The position numbers were made by a program, and so were the translations under genes. Source: Pseudomonas fulva (lineage in GTDB: Bacteria; Pseudomonadota; Gammaproteobacteria; Pseudomonadales; Pseudomonadaceae). From it: DNA of 64,000 nt. The notes beneath the pieces are model-generated. The model was not told where the DNA came from, searched no databases, and saw nothing but the letters and a program-made list of their open reading frames with translations. How positions within the stretch are numbered: position 1 is the stretch's first letter; the number at the start of each line of letters is the position of its first letter. This document shows positions 8,731-14,318 of the stretch, piece after piece. The DNA is taken from the NCBI RefSeq assembly GCF_015680705.1, contig NZ_JADNYP010000008.1, positions 124,001 to 188,000 of the forward strand, read 5' to 3'.

Positions 8731-8861
8731 GCAACGATCTCGACAACGCACGGAGCCATGAGTGTAACCCAAGCCAGCGTCCAGGACGGGCCTGCAGCGA
8801 TTGCGGCGAGGCGCGCGCTCAGGTAGAACCCTTGGGGTCTTCCTCGCCTGGCCATCTGCCC

Positions 8862-9368
8862 ATGTCGATTGCTGCCTGTACCTTCCATGACGTCACGCCA
8901 GAAGCCAGTGGCGAAGTCGTGTCCTTCGTCGACGCGGCGCGCCGCGAGCTGTTCCCTATGCTCGCCGACGCGCCCCTGCCGCCGGACCTGGCGCGTTTCG
9001 AGCAGACCTACCTCGAGGGCCGGGGACGCTTCCTGGTGGCGCGTGACCAGGGACGCCTGGTCGCCGCCATCGGCTACCTGCCCTACGATCATCGCTTCGC
9101 TCAGCTCGATTATCGGAGCCGACGCACCGTCGAAGTGGTGCGCCTGTTCGTGGCGCCCGGTTACCGAAGGGGCGGCCTGGCCGGCCGGCTGTTCAACACG
9201 CTGCGCGACGGGGCCAGGGCTGACGGGGTAGAGTGCCTGTACCTGCATACGCATCCTTTCTTGCCTGGCGCGATCGACTTTTGGAAAAAGCAGGGCTTCG
9301 AGGTGGTCGACATCGAAGACGATCCGCTGTGGCAAACCACGCACATGCACCAGCAGCTGGTGGCCTAG
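8862..9368 (+). CDS. GNAT family N-acetyltransferase
   Basis: 168 residues with one GNAT fold. The acetyl-CoA binding segment VAPGYRRGGLAGRLFNTLRD (about residues 97-116) carries the R-x-x-G-x-[GA] pattern. It is followed by ECLYLHTHPFLPGAIDFWKKQGFEVVD, the usual beta-strand and final helix of the family. Such enzymes move an acetyl group from acetyl-CoA to an amine, but the acceptor is not predictable here. The ATG at 8862 is the first ATG in frame; no clear ribosome binding site precedes it. The gene is convergent with the oprD-like gene. Confidence 0.85.
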   Translation: MSIAACTFHDVTPEASGEVVSFVDAARRELFPMLADAPLPPDLARFEQTYLEGRGRFLVARDQGRLVAAIGYLPYDHRFAQLDYRSRRTVEVVRLFVAPGYRRGGLAGRLFNTLRDGARADGVECLYLHTHPFLPGAIDFWKKQGFEVVDIEDDPLWQTTHMHQQLVA

Positions 9369-9394: not shown

Positions 9395-10744
9395 TCACAG
9401 GCCGCCGCTGAGCGGGTACTCGATCGCCAGGCGAATCTGGTCGCCGTCCAGCTCGGCCTGGGCCGTGTCACCCCTGTGCACGTTGTGCCGCAGCGAGAAG
9501 GCCAGGCCCTTGGCCTTGCCAGCCTGCACCACGTAGCGCGCCTCCAGGTCCCGTTCCCAGTGCTTGCCATCCTTGCCATAGCCGAGGTAGGCATAGCCGC
9601 CAGTGGGATCGACGTGGCTGCCATCGATGTCGAAACCGCGTACGTACAGCGCGGTAAGGTTCAGCCCAGGCAGGCCGAAGGCGCCCATGTTCAGGTCGTA
9701 GCGCGCCTGCCAGGACTTTTCGTTGGGAGCATTGAAGTCCGACATCTGCACGGCGTTGCCAATGAAGATCGCCCCGCGAGTAACGTAGTCGAACGGCGTG
9801 TCGCCATCGACGTGCTGGTAGCTCAGGCTGAAGGCATGCGGGCCTTGGCTGTAGCGCGAGAGCAGGCTCCAGGTGGTGTTGTCGATGCGTCCGGACAGCG
9901 CCTTGCCTGTATCGGTGGTGCGATACAGGTTCAGGTCCAGGCTCAGGCTGCGCAGATCGTCCAGCGGGTACACGAAGGTGCCGCCCAGGTAGTGCTGGTT
10001 CCAGCTGTCCTGGTAGCGCGAAGTGTAGAGGCTGGCGTTGACGCTGCTCGAGGGGCTGTACACCGCGCCAGCCAGGTCGAAGCTGTCGCCCTTGCGGCCG
10101 TTGGAATAATTGACCACGAAGCCTTGGTCATGACTGCTGGCGTTGCGGTCGGTGCTTTCGGTGAAGTGGCCGGCGACCAGCTTGAGCTTGTCGATCTCGT
10201 TGCTGACCAGGAACAGGCCGGTGGCGGTCTCGGGCAGCAGGCGGCTGTCGGACGAGCTGAACACCGGGGTCTTGACCCGTTGCTCGCCATAGGACAGCAC
10301 AGTGTCGGATAGCCGCAGCTTCAACGCCGCGCCACCACGGCCATACTGGCTCTTTGGATGGCCTTCGTTATCCAGGCCAAGCAGGCGGGCCTTGCCGGCA
10401 CGGCCACCACCGCTGTCGAGCTGCATGCCCAGGTAGGCATGAGCATCGACGCCCACGCCGACCAGGCCCTGGGTGAATCCGGACTGGAAAGTACCCATCA
10501 GGCCATAGGCCCATTCCTCGGCCTTGCCGTTACGATCGGCGCGCGGCTTGTAGGCATTGCGCGCGCCACTGTTGCGGCCACCGTGGCGGTAGTCGCGCTG
10601 GTCGAACACCGTGCGATTGAGCAGGTTCCAGCTGCTGTCCTCGAGCAGGCCGCGCGCCTGGGATTGCGCCGAATCGGCCACGGCCAGGGGGGTGAGGCCC
10701 AGCAATGGCAACGCCCAGGCAAAGCGGTGACAGAGTGCGCTCAT
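9395..10744 (-). CDS. OprD family outer membrane porin
   Basis: 449 residues with a signal peptide (cleavage after AVADS region, about residue 23) and the alternating pattern of an 18-strand OprD barrel. Family features include LLNRTVFDQRDYRHGG near the mature start, EEWAYGLMGTFQSGFTQGLVGVG, and a C-terminal IRLAIEYPLSGGL strand. OprD proteins allow specific uptake of small amino acids, peptides or carboxylates. The start overlaps the pseudoazurin stop (ATGA at 10741-10744). It is therefore the last gene of the cobalamin-riboswitch operon, which makes a cobalamin- or cobalt-related or otherwise B12-responsive uptake role plausible. That role is inference. Confidence 0.9.
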   Translation of the reverse strand: MSALCHRFAWALPLLGLTPLAVADSAQSQARGLLEDSSWNLLNRTVFDQRDYRHGGRNSGARNAYKPRADRNGKAEEWAYGLMGTFQSGFTQGLVGVGVDAHAYLGMQLDSGGGRAGKARLLGLDNEGHPKSQYGRGGAALKLRLSDTVLSYGEQRVKTPVFSSSDSRLLPETATGLFLVSNEIDKLKLVAGHFTESTDRNASSHDQGFVVNYSNGRKGDSFDLAGAVYSPSSSVNASLYTSRYQDSWNQHYLGGTFVYPLDDLRSLSLDLNLYRTTDTGKALSGRIDNTTWSLLSRYSQGPHAFSLSYQHVDGDTPFDYVTRGAIFIGNAVQMSDFNAPNEKSWQARYDLNMGAFGLPGLNLTALYVRGFDIDGSHVDPTGGYAYLGYGKDGKHWERDLEARYVVQAGKAKGLAFSLRHNVHRGDTAQAELDGDQIRLAIEYPLSGGL

Positions 10745-11181
10745 CGGCCGGTCTCCAGTCGCTGCAGTTGCGCGGCCAGGCGGGCCTTGGCCCGCGCTGG
10801 CAAGCTGCTCGGCACTGCGCCAGTGGAAGGTCCTGGCTGGCCGACCTGGATCAGCATGACCATGCCCATGGCCAGGTGCGGGATGCACTGGATGCCATAC
10901 AGTCCGGGCGTGGCGAAGCGGTATTCGGCGGGCTGGTTGATGTTGCTCTTGAACGTTGGCGCCGCTTCGGGCCAGAGGCCTGGCAGGCTCGCTGCGTTAT
11001 GCCCGCTCTGGGTCGGCACGAAGCGCACGCTGTCGCCTGGCTCGATACGCAGGTGATCCGGTTCGTAGACCATGGCACCGTCGGCGCCGCGGTTGAGCAT
11101 CTTCACTTCATGGACGTCGCCCAGCGCCAGCGGCGCGAGCAGCGAACAGGACAACAGCAGGGCAAGGCGATGCAGGCGCAT
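10741..11181 (-). CDS. Pseudoazurin (periplasmic type I blue copper protein)
   Basis: 146 residues with an N-terminal signal peptide (MRLHRLALLLSCSLL, cleavage around LALG). The cupredoxin domain keeps all four type I copper ligands: His61 (SGHNA), Cys99 and His102 (CIPH), and Met107, with the C-x2-H-x4-M spacing of pseudoazurin. These proteins shuttle electrons in the periplasm, classically to denitrification enzymes. An ATG three codons upstream (11190) is an alternative start. It lies 16 bases behind the ABC ATPase gene and overlaps oprD. A copper electron carrier inside a riboswitch-controlled ABC operon is unexpected, and its electron partner is not in view. Confidence 0.9.
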   Translation of the reverse strand: MRLHRLALLLSCSLLAPLALGDVHEVKMLNRGADGAMVYEPDHLRIEPGDSVRFVPTQSGHNAASLPGLWPEAAPTFKSNINQPAEYRFATPGLYGIQCIPHLAMGMVMLIQVGQPGPSTGAVPSSLPARAKARLAAQLQRLETGR

Positions 11182-11197
11182 GTCTTCCATTCCAGGT

Positions 11198-11989
11198 TCA
11201 AGGGGCGCGGAAACGCAGGATGCGCGCGCCGTCATAAGGGTCGGTCAGATAGTGGGCGTGGACACCGAAGGTGCTCAGCAGCCGCTCCGGCGTGAGGACG
11301 TCGTGTGGCTTGCCGAGCGCGACCAGGCGGCCCTTGTCGAGTACCGCGAGGCGGTCGCAGGTCAGCGCCTGGTTGAGATCGTGCAAGGCGATCAGCGTCG
11401 TCACCCGCAGGGCCTGGATGCGTTGCAACAGGCTCAGCTGGTGCTGGATGTCCAGATGATTGGTCGGCTCGTCGAGCAACAGCACCTTGGGGCGCTGGGC
11501 CAGCGCCCTGGCGATGTGCACACGTTGGCGTTCGCCACCAGACAGGCTGCTCCAGGTTCGCTGGCGCAGGTGCAAGGCATCCAGGTCGGCCAGGGCCTGG
11601 TCGACGATCGCGGCGTCCTCGGCGGTGAACGGCGCCAGCGCCGATAGCCAGGGGGTGCGCCCGAGCGCCACTGCATCGTGAACGTTCACCGCATCATGGG
11701 TGTCGGCCTGCTGCTCCACCAGGGCCAGCGCCTGGGCGATCTGGCGGCGCGGCAGGCGCGCCAGCGGCTGGCCCAGCAGCTGCACCTGGCCACCATCGGG
11801 CTGGCGCAGGCCGGCCAGCAGCTTGAGCAGGGTCGACTTGCCCGATCCATTGGGGCCGACGATGCCTAGGGTCTCGCCTGCCTGCACGGACAGTTCGATC
11901 CCGTAGAGCAACTGGGTGCCACGCACTCGATAGCCCAGCCCCTGGCAAGCGAGTGGCGCGGTCGGGGTCGCGGGCATCATGGCAGTCAT
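11198..11989 (-). CDS. ABC transporter ATP-binding protein, FecE/BtuD type
   Basis: 263 residues with Walker A GPNGSGKST (about 44-52), the signature LSGGERQRVHIARAL, Walker B KVLLLDEPTNHLD and the switch histidine in LIALHDLNQ. This arrangement is that of iron-siderophore, haem or cobalamin importers, in which the ATPase drives a FecCD-type permease. The start overlaps the permease stop by four bases. The cobalamin riboswitch in front of the operon favours a corrinoid or cobalt-complex ligand over a ferric siderophore, but the sequence of the ATPase itself does not discriminate. Confidence 0.92.
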   Translation of the reverse strand: MTAMMPATPTAPLACQGLGYRVRGTQLLYGIELSVQAGETLGIVGPNGSGKSTLLKLLAGLRQPDGGQVQLLGQPLARLPRRQIAQALALVEQQADTHDAVNVHDAVALGRTPWLSALAPFTAEDAAIVDQALADLDALHLRQRTWSSLSGGERQRVHIARALAQRPKVLLLDEPTNHLDIQHQLSLLQRIQALRVTTLIALHDLNQALTCDRLAVLDKGRLVALGKPHDVLTPERLLSTFGVHAHYLTDPYDGARILRFRAP

Positions 11990-13002
11990 CGCGGACTCCT
12001 GCGGCTGACCAGGATCAGGGCGAAGACGGGCGCGCCGATCAGCGCCGTCACCACGCCCACCGGAATCACCTGGCCGGGAATCAAGGTTCGGGAAAGCACG
12101 TCGGCGGCGATCAGAAACAGCGCGCCGCCCAGCGCGCTGGCCGGCAGCAGGCGACTGTGGCCGGGGCCCAGCAGCAGGCGCAGGGCATGGGGGATCACCA
12201 GCCCGACGAAGCCGATCGCACCGACGATCGACACCATCACCGCGGTGACCAGCGCGGCGCAGGTGATCAGCAGCAGCTGCACCCGGCGTACGGCAATGCC
12301 CAGCGAAGCGGCCGAATCGCTACCGAAGGTGAACGCATCCAGCGCGCGTCGGTGCCATAGGCACATGGCCAGGCCGGCGCCGGCCACCGGCACGGCCAGC
12401 CATACCGATGGCCAGCGCACGCCACTGAGATTGCCCAGCAGCCAGAACAGGATTCCGCGCGCTTGCTCGGCGCTGGCCGACTTGGTCACCAAGAACGCGG
12501 TCAAGGCATTGAACAGTTGCGAGCCGGCGATCCCGGCGAGGATCACCTGGGCATTGCCGTTGGCTGGGCCGCTGGCACGGGCCAGCAGCAGGACCAGGGC
12601 AAAAGCGGCCAGCGCGCCGAGGAACGCGCCGCCTGATAGCGACAGCGCGCCGGCGCCCAGACCCAGCAAGGCGACCAGCACCGCGCCGGTCGACGCGCCA
12701 GCGGACAGGCCCAGCAGGTACGGCTCGGCCAGCGGATTACGCAGCAGCGCCTGCAGGATCACGCCGCAGGTCGCAAGGCCCGCGCCGCAGGCGGCAGCCA
12801 CCAGGGTCCGGGTCAGCCGGTAGTTCCAGACGATGCCTTGGTCGATCGGATCGACCAGGTAGCCGGCATGCCACAGCTGGTTGGCCAGCACCTGGTAGAT
12901 GACCGTGGGCGTCATGCGGGTTTCACCGATGCCGATGCCCGCCAGCAAGGCCAGCGACAGGGCACCGAGGACCAAGGCGGCACGAATGAACAGGCGCATC
13001 AT
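11986..13002 (-). CDS. FecCD/BtuC family ABC transporter permease
   Basis: 338 residues with about ten membrane segments. Typical FecCD blocks are visible: RLTRTLVAAACGAGLATCGVILQALLRNPLAEPYLLGLSAGASTGAV in pieces around residues 65-110, and the C-terminal GFVGLVIPHALRLLLGPGHSRLLPASALGGA, which contacts the ATPase. It forms the homodimeric channel of a type II importer such as BtuCD. It overlaps both neighbouring genes by four bases, so the three ABC genes are translationally coupled. Confidence 0.93.
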   Translation of the reverse strand: MMRLFIRAALVLGALSLALLAGIGIGETRMTPTVIYQVLANQLWHAGYLVDPIDQGIVWNYRLTRTLVAAACGAGLATCGVILQALLRNPLAEPYLLGLSAGASTGAVLVALLGLGAGALSLSGGAFLGALAAFALVLLLARASGPANGNAQVILAGIAGSQLFNALTAFLVTKSASAEQARGILFWLLGNLSGVRWPSVWLAVPVAGAGLAMCLWHRRALDAFTFGSDSAASLGIAVRRVQLLLITCAALVTAVMVSIVGAIGFVGLVIPHALRLLLGPGHSRLLPASALGGALFLIAADVLSRTLIPGQVIPVGVVTALIGAPVFALILVSRRSPR

Positions 13003-14012
13003 GGCTGTGGCGCTTTACCCGAGGAAAATGCCGCGGCGAGCGTCTCCAGGCCGCTGAACAGACGCAGGCTGGCCTGCATGGCATGGGCGTCGAGCACGAT
13101 GATGCGGTCGTGTTTCACCGCGTCCATGTTGCGTGTCACCGGATCGTTGCGCAGGAATTGCAGTTTTTTCTGGAAGTCATCGGCAGGGAAGCGGCGACGG
13201 TCCATGCGCGCGATCACCAGCCAGGTAGGGTTGGCCTTGGCCAGGGTTTCCCAGCCGACGGTAGGCCATTCCTCATCCGACTCGACGACATTGCGCACCC
13301 CAAGACTCTGCAGCATGAAGTCGGGAATACCCTTGCGTCCCGCGACATAGGGGTCGATATCCAGGTCGGCGCTGGAGAACCAGAACAAGGCAGTGGTGTG
13401 GGACAGGTCCTTGCCGGCGAGGCTGGCCTTGGCCTTGGCGAGCCTGGCCTGCAGCGCCTGGTTGAGCGCCTCGCCACGATCCTGCACGTCGAAGATCCGT
13501 GCCAGCTGGCTGATGCTGCGGTACACGGTCTCGATCTGGAACGGTTGCAGGCGGGTGCCGTCGGCGCCGACCAGGTTGTCCTTGCCCTCGCAGTCGGAAG
13601 GCATGAGGTAGGTCGGGATATTCAGCTCATGGAATTGTTCACGGGTGCCGACCACTCCCTGCGCACCGACCATCCATTCCAGCTGCACCGCCAGTAATTG
13701 CGGGCGCTTGCCGATCACCGCCTCGAAACTCGGATCGTTGTCGGCCAGGCGTTCGACCTTGGCATCCTGGGCCTTGTACTGCGGCAGCACATCGTTGAAC
13801 CACAGCGAGGTACCGACCAGCTTGTCGCCTTGGCCCAGGGCGTAGAGCATCTCGGTGCCAGCCTGGCCGATCGTGACGACACGCTGCGGCGCCTGCTGGA
13901 AGGTCAACGACATGCCGCAGTTATCGAGGGTCAACGGATAATGGGTACTGGCCGCCTGGGCCAGGCCGGTGGCGCCAAGCGCGGCGAGCAGGGTGACGAA
14001 ACGGGGCAGCAT
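12999..14012 (-). CDS. Periplasmic binding protein of a cobalamin/iron-complex type ABC importer (BtuF/FepB-like)
   Basis: 337 residues with a signal peptide (MLPRFVTLLAALGATGLAQA). The mature protein has the class III binding-protein layout: APQRVVTIGQAGTEMLYALGQGDKLVG near the start, a long linking helix (LNQALQARLAKAKASL), and a second lobe ending VLDAHAMQASLRLFSGLETLA. It is longer than E. coli BtuF. The ligand is not obvious, but it is the first gene downstream of the cobalamin riboswitch. AGGAG lies ten bases before the ATG. It overlaps the permease gene by four bases. No TonB-dependent receptor accompanies it. Confidence 0.88.
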   Translation of the reverse strand: MLPRFVTLLAALGATGLAQAASTHYPLTLDNCGMSLTFQQAPQRVVTIGQAGTEMLYALGQGDKLVGTSLWFNDVLPQYKAQDAKVERLADNDPSFEAVIGKRPQLLAVQLEWMVGAQGVVGTREQFHELNIPTYLMPSDCEGKDNLVGADGTRLQPFQIETVYRSISQLARIFDVQDRGEALNQALQARLAKAKASLAGKDLSHTTALFWFSSADLDIDPYVAGRKGIPDFMLQSLGVRNVVESDEEWPTVGWETLAKANPTWLVIARMDRRRFPADDFQKKLQFLRNDPVTRNMDAVKHDRIIVLDAHAMQASLRLFSGLETLAAAFSSGKAPQP

Positions 14013-14066
14013 GTGGGGCGATCTCCTATCGTGGGTGCACGGGACAGACGCACGGACAGGCATCGC

Positions 14067-14093
14067 CAGCCACACGCCCATGACGTGTGGCTG
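14067..14093 (-). promoter_or_regulatory. Hairpin in the leader between riboswitch and first gene
   Basis: A perfect 10-bp stem (14067-14076 with 14084-14093) and a seven-base loop lies between the cobalamin aptamer and the binding-protein ATG, about 55 bases upstream of that start. No U-run follows it on the minus strand, so it is not a standard terminator. It may belong to the expression platform; the mechanism is not decidable by eye. Confidence 0.5.
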
Positions 14094-14129
14094 CACCCTG
14101 GACGGGTGGAGATGGCCATCCCGGACACC

Positions 14130-14318
14130 CCGCCGGTTGGTGAATGCGTGCCGGCAGGTCTCCTGACTGATGCGTCATGGCCCGACTTCGCCTTCCCGGG
14201 AATTGACCCAGTGGCATCGCTGAAGTGGGCTCGGCACCTACAGTTGCGGGGGCAGTTCCGTTTCGCTGCATACAGGCAGCCACGGATTCCCTGTTAGTTC
14301 CTTGACGGAAACCGGCGG
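14130..14318 (-). ncRNA. Cobalamin (B12) riboswitch
   Basis: Read on the minus strand, the conserved landmarks occur in the correct order. A 9-bp closing P1 stem pairs 14310-14318 with 14130-14138. The CTGCCCCCGCAACTG core lies at 14241-14255, the B12 box GCCACTG at 14209-14215, then GGGAAGGC, and GTCAGGAGACCTGCC at 14153-14167. This is the AdoCbl-type consensus. Binding of the cofactor normally switches off the gene downstream, here the ABC importer operon that starts at 14012 and runs through pseudoazurin and oprD. Confidence 0.96.

Follow-up and report, generated by a model that had tools for sequence, protein, structure and literature searches.

A cobalamin riboswitch-controlled operon of Pseudomonas fulva that joins a probable CbtJKL-type cobalt importer to a pseudoazurin and an OprD-family channel

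Organisation of the operon and its riboswitch

We analysed a 64,000-nucleotide stretch of the Pseudomonas fulva genome (assembly GCF_015680705.1, contig NZ_JADNYP010000008.1, positions 124,001 to 188,000), referred to at its full length as the window. The minus strand of the window carries a cobalamin riboswitch followed by five closely spaced genes. These encode the periplasmic substrate-binding protein (SBP), permease and ATPase of an ATP-binding cassette (ABC) importer, the blue copper protein pseudoazurin and an outer-membrane channel. In our best reading, which we consider likely, this is a B12-repressed operon that imports cobalt, probably as a chelate, for B12 synthesis. The features are listed below in window coordinates.

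14331-14136, minus strand: cobalamin riboswitch aptamer, RF00174 (cmscan 103.4 bits, model positions 1-189 complete)
14013-14135, minus strand: leader and predicted expression platform (RNAfold of 13995-14150)
14012-12999, minus strand: CbtJ-like SBP, 337 amino acids, signal peptide expected (PF01497, 142.7 bits)
13002-11986, minus strand: CbtK-like FecCD permease, 338 amino acids (PF01032, 283.9 bits)
11989-11198, minus strand: CbtL-like ABC ATPase, 263 amino acids (PF00005, 126.8 bits)
11181-10741, minus strand: pseudoazurin, 146 amino acids from the ATG at 11181 (TIGR02375, 121.3 bits, cut-off 109.85)
10744-9395, minus strand: OprD/Occ-family outer-membrane channel, OccD-like, 449 amino acids (PF03573, 451.7 bits, residues 32-446)

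An earlier note on this DNA had called the riboswitch textbook, and the match does cover the whole RF00174 model at 103.4 bits (gathering score 31.5). The aptamer extends to 14331, rather than ending at 14318 as that note had it. It is the sole Rfam match above gathering score in the 64 kb. The tight coupling of all five genes, blue copper protein and OprD included, was also described correctly. Thus, read from the sequence, four-base overlaps are found at the SBP/permease, permease/ATPase and pseudoazurin/OprD junctions. The ATPase and pseudoazurin genes are separated by 16 bases, counted from the ATG at 11181; an alternative ATG lies at 11190. Between positions 8800 and 15800, neither promoter-like sites (1 found, 1.1 expected) nor terminator-like sites (2 found, 3.1 expected) occurred above chance. 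One terminator-like site is on the operon strand (12139-12118), within the permease gene.

In the predicted fold of the leader, AUCUCC (14113-14108) pairs with the Shine-Dalgarno sequence GGAGAU (14026-14021), with a z-score of only -1.2. The RNAfold hairpin suggests translational control of the operon by Shine-Dalgarno sequestration. At low levels of adenosylcobalamin, the riboswitch would keep the ribosome-binding site accessible, so that all five genes would be expressed. RF00174 is positioned 5' of the SBP gene in 26 of the 27 scanned relatives with both pseudoazurin and SBP, the one miss being a Lautropia locus (L152). Some SBP loci without pseudoazurin are also without RF00174 (for example L069, L071 and L187-L189).

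Two genes flank the operon. A GNAT gene (8832-9368) is convergent with it, just beyond its end. An acyltransferase-like gene (PF07786; 14394-15563, minus strand) lies directly 5' of the riboswitch and adjoins the operon in many Pseudomonas loci. Given this position, transcription of the gene may run on into the leader.

Relatives of the importer and its probable substrate

On Sinorhizobium meliloti pSymB there is a single place similar to the window SBP. At this locus (L184), RF00174 (116.3 bits) is followed by genes for an SBP, a permease and an ATPase. The window proteins are 51, 67 and 52% identical to these, respectively. Passages of a 2021 review describe CbtJKL as the pSymB-encoded, riboswitch-controlled Co(II) importer of S. 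meliloti, initially taken for a cobalamin transporter (PMC7689651). CbtJKL also appears in passages of a further paper (PMC12239276), and the pSymB locus fits the published descriptions. We hold with high confidence that the pSymB locus is CbtJKL and, from this relation, infer that the window importer carries cobalt. The pSymB locus also has a methyltransferase gene (L184, 8816-9610) whose best model is a corrinoid-protein-associated methyltransferase, under cut-off. Proteins that resemble it by eye come after pseudoazurin in Microvirga and Tianweitania (L163, L165).

The relation was examined in a maximum likelihood tree of SBPs. The tree has 78 rows (74 different), chosen from 162 extracted sequences plus the window, and its very long rows are unsure. 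The pSymB protein and the window SBP share one 59-row clade (support 98/87). Outside this clade are E. coli Eit (L188), a Rhizobium relative (L187), BtuF and a group of nine rows that includes Pantoea and some Pseudomonas.

An AlphaFold2 model of the window SBP (pLDDT 92.1) has 4mlz as its best fold match (Z 33.8). The fold neighbours are siderophore, heme and unassigned binders, and the fold does not decide the ligand. The H. pylori CeuE structure 4ls3, solved with bound Ni-histidine, shares the fold (Z 22.6). Residues invariant among 40 aligned SBPs include W71, R88, W211, W249, W254, R272-R274 and cysteines 32 and 141. The arginine cluster would suit an anionic chelate.

Most of the named fold neighbours bind siderophore or heme, and the Eit relatives are named siderophore importers. 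Both points would suit an operon that is B12-sparing, with an importer that brings in something else, such as an iron chelate. However, the window proteins are under the NCBIfam cut-offs for EitA (265.6 of 640 bits) and EitC (263.2 of 485), Eit is outside the CbtJ clade, and no B12 riboswitch is present in the 10.9-kb Eit stretch examined (L188). Furthermore, the operon neighbours in Comamonas and Pseudosulfitobacter are cob genes; in Comamonas endophytica the same five-gene order occurs near cobW-cobN, with RF00174 before each. We regard the iron or B12-sparing proposal as highly improbable. The version in the earlier note, a B12-sparing function that uses the copper protein, is not upheld: the neighbour of the copper protein is an importer and not a B12-independent isoenzyme, and in the host NirK stays under the cut-off and NosZ has no match.

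The importer could instead carry corrinoids. It would then be the BtuCD of the host, served by its own SBP and by a BtuF-like protein encoded beside BtuB. Such a locus exists. The 4.5-Mb host assembly carries five RF00174 sites and one of these, 25 kb outside the window, precedes genes for three proteins: a BtuB-like TonB receptor (144.6 bits with TIGR01779, less than its cut-off), a protein with a weak likeness to 2Fe-2S ferredoxins, and a BtuF-like member of PF01497. Hence, the absence of a BtuB-like receptor, stressed in the earlier note, is true of the operon and untrue of the genome. The three genes are in overlapping frames (C58:92000-107000, L036, 7014-10938), the ferredoxin-like protein has no Pfam match, and no BtuCD genes adjoin. 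The lack of an adjoining permease and ATPase favours the corrinoid proposal, as does the finding that, of eight PF01032 matches in the host, only the window permease and C57:12941 are strong and unpaired. The window permease also scores 217.7 and 209.9 bits with two BtuC models.

Conversely, the window proteins miss the BtuC (209.9 of 334), BtuD (129.6 of 281) and BtuF (28.4 of 234) cut-offs, although these separate E. coli-type BtuCDF only, because the pSymB permease and SBP also miss theirs. BtuC models give the C57 permease higher scores (282.8 and 278.2), though its ATPase passes a heme-model cut-off. Among studied systems, the closest relative imports Co(II). In addition, the SBP is absent from 17 of 17 CobN-poor Pseudomonas genomes, where salvage would be most needed, though those genomes may be close kin. 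Corrinoid import by this system thus seems to us quite unlikely. Of the cobalt or corrinoid compound envisaged in the earlier note, cobalt is well supported by the CbtJKL relation; a corrinoid is a possible but less likely cargo.

The other riboswitches of the host are associated with B12 synthesis genes. Two divergent cobalamin riboswitches, ~115 bases apart (C1:216381-216909), are found before cobW-cobN and cobM, and the fifth site precedes a gene run with cbiB and cobQ. Genes for CobN, CobW, CobM, CobQ and CbiB are all present. With these and the BtuB-like locus, the host has de novo B12 synthesis genes plus a BtuB-type route. Neither CbtA nor NiCoT, the two other cobalt importers tested, has a match in the host genome.

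Distribution in Pseudomonas and beyond

We surveyed a drawn sample of 298 Pseudomonas genomes, with SBP orthologues defined by ~45% identity or more and counts that ignore kinship. Orthologues are present in 143 genomes, including G068 and G176, in which stop codons interrupt the SBP. Every one of the 143 has a strong CobN match (in two pieces in G162). Conversely, the SBP is missing from all 17 genomes that lack a good CobN match; six of these 17 have weak matches (~1e-64 to 1e-68) that were counted as absent, and G169, without CobN, has CbtA.

CbtA is found in 260 of the 298 genomes. The 38 CbtA-negative genomes comprise 20 named directly and 18 obtained by elimination from the list of 260. 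The idea that the SBP operon replaces CbtAB was rejected: the SBP is missing in 37 of the 38 CbtA-negative genomes, and CbtA occurs in 142 of the 143 SBP-positive ones. The genus-wide co-occurrence indicates that CbtA and the SBP importer are companions, not substitutes. The host is the sole SBP-positive genome without CbtA.

Pseudoazurin of the operon type is carried by 36 of the 298 genomes, or 35 once G143, a weak match with stops, is set aside. The survey of gene neighbours bears out the linkage of pseudoazurin to the importer. Thus, in 32 of the 35 pseudoazurin-positive genomes the gene is 3-1,898 bases after the SBP. Of the rest, G076 is split by a contig end, where the end of the ATPase gene precedes pseudoazurin, and G196 and G244 are without SBP. 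A separate function for SBP-pseudoazurin pairs without a permease (G009, G149) was also considered and rejected. Permease orthologues (73% and 77%) lie elsewhere in these genomes, which therefore contain split systems. Halomonas and Vreelandella also have such pairs.

For the phylum, we used an even draw of 398 genomes, with the SBP called at ~47% identity or more and adjacency judged by coordinates. Pseudoazurin exceeds the TIGR02375 cut-off in 35 genomes (38 matches). Of the 30 pseudoazurin loci taken, with eight matches over cut-off left out, only the window and L217 adjoin a FecCD transporter.

A scan of named genomes for pseudoazurin gave at least 87 confirmed loci, of which 80 were examined; the following figures hold among the matches listed. 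The SBP is within 4.5 kb in 75 of the 80 loci (L115, L138, L141 and L148 are without it, and L155 runs into a contig end). OprD (>45% identity) is within 6 kb downstream in 42 of the 80. Measured up to the closest in-frame start codon, the gap between ATPase and pseudoazurin does not exceed 60 bases at 61 of 63 loci; at 27 of 37, a four-base overlap joins pseudoazurin to OprD. Among the hosts are Pseudomonas, Thauera, Comamonas, Diaphorobacter, Lautropia, Halomonas, Vreelandella, Paracoccus, Roseomonas and Microvirga. No clear TonB receptor gene was seen by eye just after pseudoazurin in 30 non-Pseudomonas loci, of which about one third gave no open reading frame and on which no HMM was run. 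At one locus (L070, 5049-6443, minus strand), an MFS gene (PF07690, 98.2 bits) lies between pseudoazurin and OprD, and L081 has a gap of similar size.

Several observations weigh against a cobalt importer in which all five genes act together. The pSymB record is without gene names, and the equation with CbtJKL rests on the replicon, the riboswitch and a single match. The Eit siderophore model scores the pSymB SBP higher than the window SBP (336.8 and 265.6 bits, cut-off 640). The host BtuF-like gene, with no BtuCD beside it, leaves room for corrinoid import via the window permease and ATPase. The presence of CbtA in 142 of 143 SBP-positive genomes means that hosts of the importer usually have a further way to take up cobalt. 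Pseudoazurin adjoins the SBP in only 32 of 143 SBP-positive Pseudomonas genomes (33 with the split contig), and in 1 of 19 SBP-positive genomes of the phylum, namely the host itself. Hence, pseudoazurin is accessory rather than essential. The pseudoazurin of G297 has an in-frame TGA. Finally, pseudoazurin and OprD survive with no SBP orthologue adjoining at L076, L077, L115, L138, L141 and L148 (L076 and L138 being the same). Because the pair persists where the importer genes are gone, it either acts without the importer or is decaying.

In the remnant loci of the P. fragi/psychrophila group, no importer genes separate the acyltransferase gene from pseudoazurin, and reading frames and copper ligands are intact. 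L076 and L077, the two scanned pseudoazurin-OprD loci that miss the importer genes, have no RF00174. PCuAC-like and SCO-like genes, named by eye, are beside a P. fragi group remnant. A copper-chaperone link was rejected since both genes also adjoin full operons there; they reflect a conserved position and are not evidence.

The accessory proteins and comparison with known systems

The copper ligands of the window pseudoazurin are H61, C99, H102 and M107. All 119 aligned rows, among them some duplicates of one locus, retain the type 1 set (His, Cys, His, Met). A tree of 73 pseudoazurins places the 37 importer-linked rows chosen for it and 5 OprD-only rows in one 42-row clade (support 100/97), with 28 from other settings apart from it; the alignment has few columns. 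The importer-linked members span alpha-, beta- and gammaproteobacteria, and the single clade suggests one gain of pseudoazurin followed by spread or loss. Clade members nearly always have Arg10 (82/83 rows), Ala43 (80/83) and Met88 (83/83), though at least three of these rows repeat a locus already counted. Met16 and Met84 are present throughout (83/83 rows); we take these residues to flank the exposed copper-ligand histidine. Lys38, which is presumably part of the NirK docking patch, is present in 2/83 clade rows and 22/28 other pseudoazurins.

Could the protein be an ordinary denitrification electron donor caught in the operon? In the host genome NosZ has no match and NirK reaches 27.1 bits (cut-off 296.3), with NirS and peroxidase outside the search. 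The usual customers of pseudoazurin are thus missing, and the host is already a case of a conserved-ligand clade member in a non-denitrifier as regards NirK and NosZ (NirS being outside the search). Moreover, the operon copies form a separate clade and have mostly lost Lys38, a presumed docking residue. On the other side, a denitrifier could well profit from a NosZ donor controlled by B12. Sections of PMC5987163 state that in Paracoccus a pool of cytochrome c550 or pseudoazurin supplies the reductases of denitrification, that N2O inactivates B12 and that copper limitation raises N2O. We nevertheless judge this explanation very improbable.

The main rival account of the pseudoazurin is copper buffering. 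The protein would take up periplasmic copper and so prevent mis-metalling of the cobalt-binding protein. This is plausible because copper outcompetes cobalt (the Irving-Williams series) and, as suggested in passages of PMC7689651, is easier to obtain in the periplasm than in the cytosol. The copper ligands are all conserved, and the copper protein travels with the importer in three classes. However, a 1:1 cupredoxin is a costly buffer. Methionines around the exposed histidine, where we place Met16 and Met84, would be needless, yet both are kept in all 83 rows. Protection from copper is also less obvious for a second type of cassette, described below, with a ferrichrome/ferrioxamine-like SBP. 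On balance, buffering is plausible but improbable.

The retention of Met16 and Met84 and the loss of Lys38 fit electron transfer to a different partner. We tentatively suggest a redox step on Co(III) chelates: in the periplasm, pseudoazurin may reduce inert chelates of Co(III) and thereby maintain or generate the labile Co(II) form.

The second cassette type extends this suggestion. In Thauera sp. Sel9 (L153, 7450-12411), a second SBP-permease-ATPase-pseudoazurin set directly follows the first and precedes OprD; the copper protein of this second set reaches 96.2 bits and misses the pseudoazurin cut-off. A cassette of the second type is also carried by G395 (L231, 2936-6492), with a pseudoazurin over the cut-off (128.7 bits). 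The SBPs of these cassettes best match a ferrichrome/ferrioxamine model, under cut-off (136.3 and 184.2 of 374). A blue copper protein as the fourth gene of FecCD-type importers thus recurs, in two cases seen. Since metal(III) chelates would be common to both cassette types, the species reduced may be an inert chelate of either Co(III) or Fe(III). More speculatively still, a dedicated blue copper protein might be a working fourth component of FecCD-type importers, in a redox-coupled uptake of metal(III) chelates. Periplasmic electron transfer would make or break such chelates, which in the sister cassettes of Thauera and G395 would probably be ferric-siderophore-like. We know of no ABC importer of metals that is redox-coupled and has a cupredoxin as its partner.

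The best PDB match of the channel is Porin D (OprD; 349.8 bits), followed by the histidine porin OpdC (268). According to passages of PMC3260308, OccD1 requires a carboxyl group and accepts basic amino acids, and histidine cuts arginine uptake to 12%. Our best guess, drawn from the likeness to OprD and OpdC, the substrate rules of OccD1 and the CeuE fold solved with Ni-histidine, is that the cargo would be a metal-amino-acid chelate.

We can now set out how a cobalt-importing operon might work. The OccD-type channel would pass a small carboxylate cobalt chelate, such as a cobalt-histidine complex, across the outer membrane. The CbtJ-like SBP would bind the cobalt chelate, the CbtKL-like proteins would import it, and CobN and CobW would serve to put cobalt in the corrin ring. 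The parts of this explanation that we infer are the cargo of the channel, the substrate of the importer and the role of pseudoazurin. Taken together, the locus is best read as a real, conserved CbtJKL-type cobalt importer with two accessory parts, the copper protein being the unexplained one.

How Gram-negative bacteria take cobalt across two membranes without picking up more competitive copper is an open problem. According to passages of the 2021 review, no cobalt-specific outer-membrane receptor is confirmed (PMC7689651). With this B12-controlled operon come candidates for an outer-membrane channel and for a helper in the periplasm, in P. putida group pseudomonads that lend themselves to experiments. 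A direct role for pseudoazurin would, if true, extend the tasks of blue copper proteins beyond respiration and denitrification. In the open-licence literature we found no description of this operon under a cobalamin riboswitch with OprD, with pseudoazurin or blue copper, or with cobalt transport. Two papers on pseudoazurin, cobalamin and riboswitches, one being PMC5987163, do not describe the operon in the parts consulted. PMC8531726 and PMC9240420, likewise in part, turned up in searches joining cobalt with cupredoxin or OprD, or pseudoazurin with ABC transporter. The word 'azurin' is absent from the main texts, supplements excluded, of two surveys of riboswitch and cobalt genes (PMC3766115 and PMC2667541).

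Comparison with known systems separates the familiar parts from the unusual ones. OprD (OccD1) of P. aeruginosa is the best solved match to the window channel (~350 bits); unlike OccD1, the window channel is placed under a B12 riboswitch and its gene overlaps that for pseudoazurin. An ordinary pseudoazurin (e.g. 1bqk) has the same type 1 copper ligands and matches over the whole chain (115 bits). Unlike such proteins, the operon copies form their own clade with Arg10, Ala43 and Met88 nearly fixed and Lys38 mostly lost, in a host with NirK under cut-off and no NosZ.

PA2911-PA2914 of P. aeruginosa is an ABC importer whose permease is termed a cobalamin permease homologue in passages of PMC8531726. 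Unlike the window operon, it has a TonB receptor and is Zur-regulated; the likeness is by description and not by sequence. EitABC(D) of E. coli plasmids has the same gene order, and the window proteins are 36, 56 and 44% identical to it. An MFS gene comes next there, as one comes after pseudoazurin in L070. Unlike the window, Eit is without a B12 riboswitch in the stretch examined, and it falls outside the CbtJ clade. The BtuFCD B12 importer belongs to the same ABC importer class and shares B12 control, with the window proteins under the BtuF, BtuC and BtuD cut-offs. Closest is CbtJKL of S. meliloti pSymB, which has a cobalamin riboswitch and genes for a PF01497-type SBP, a FecCD permease and an ABC ATPase in the same order, and an SBP of the same clade. 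Unlike the window, the pSymB operon has neither pseudoazurin nor OprD and has the methyltransferase gene instead. The transporter, the riboswitch and the order of the importer genes are already known in kind; of the two accessory parts, the pseudoazurin is the unusual one.

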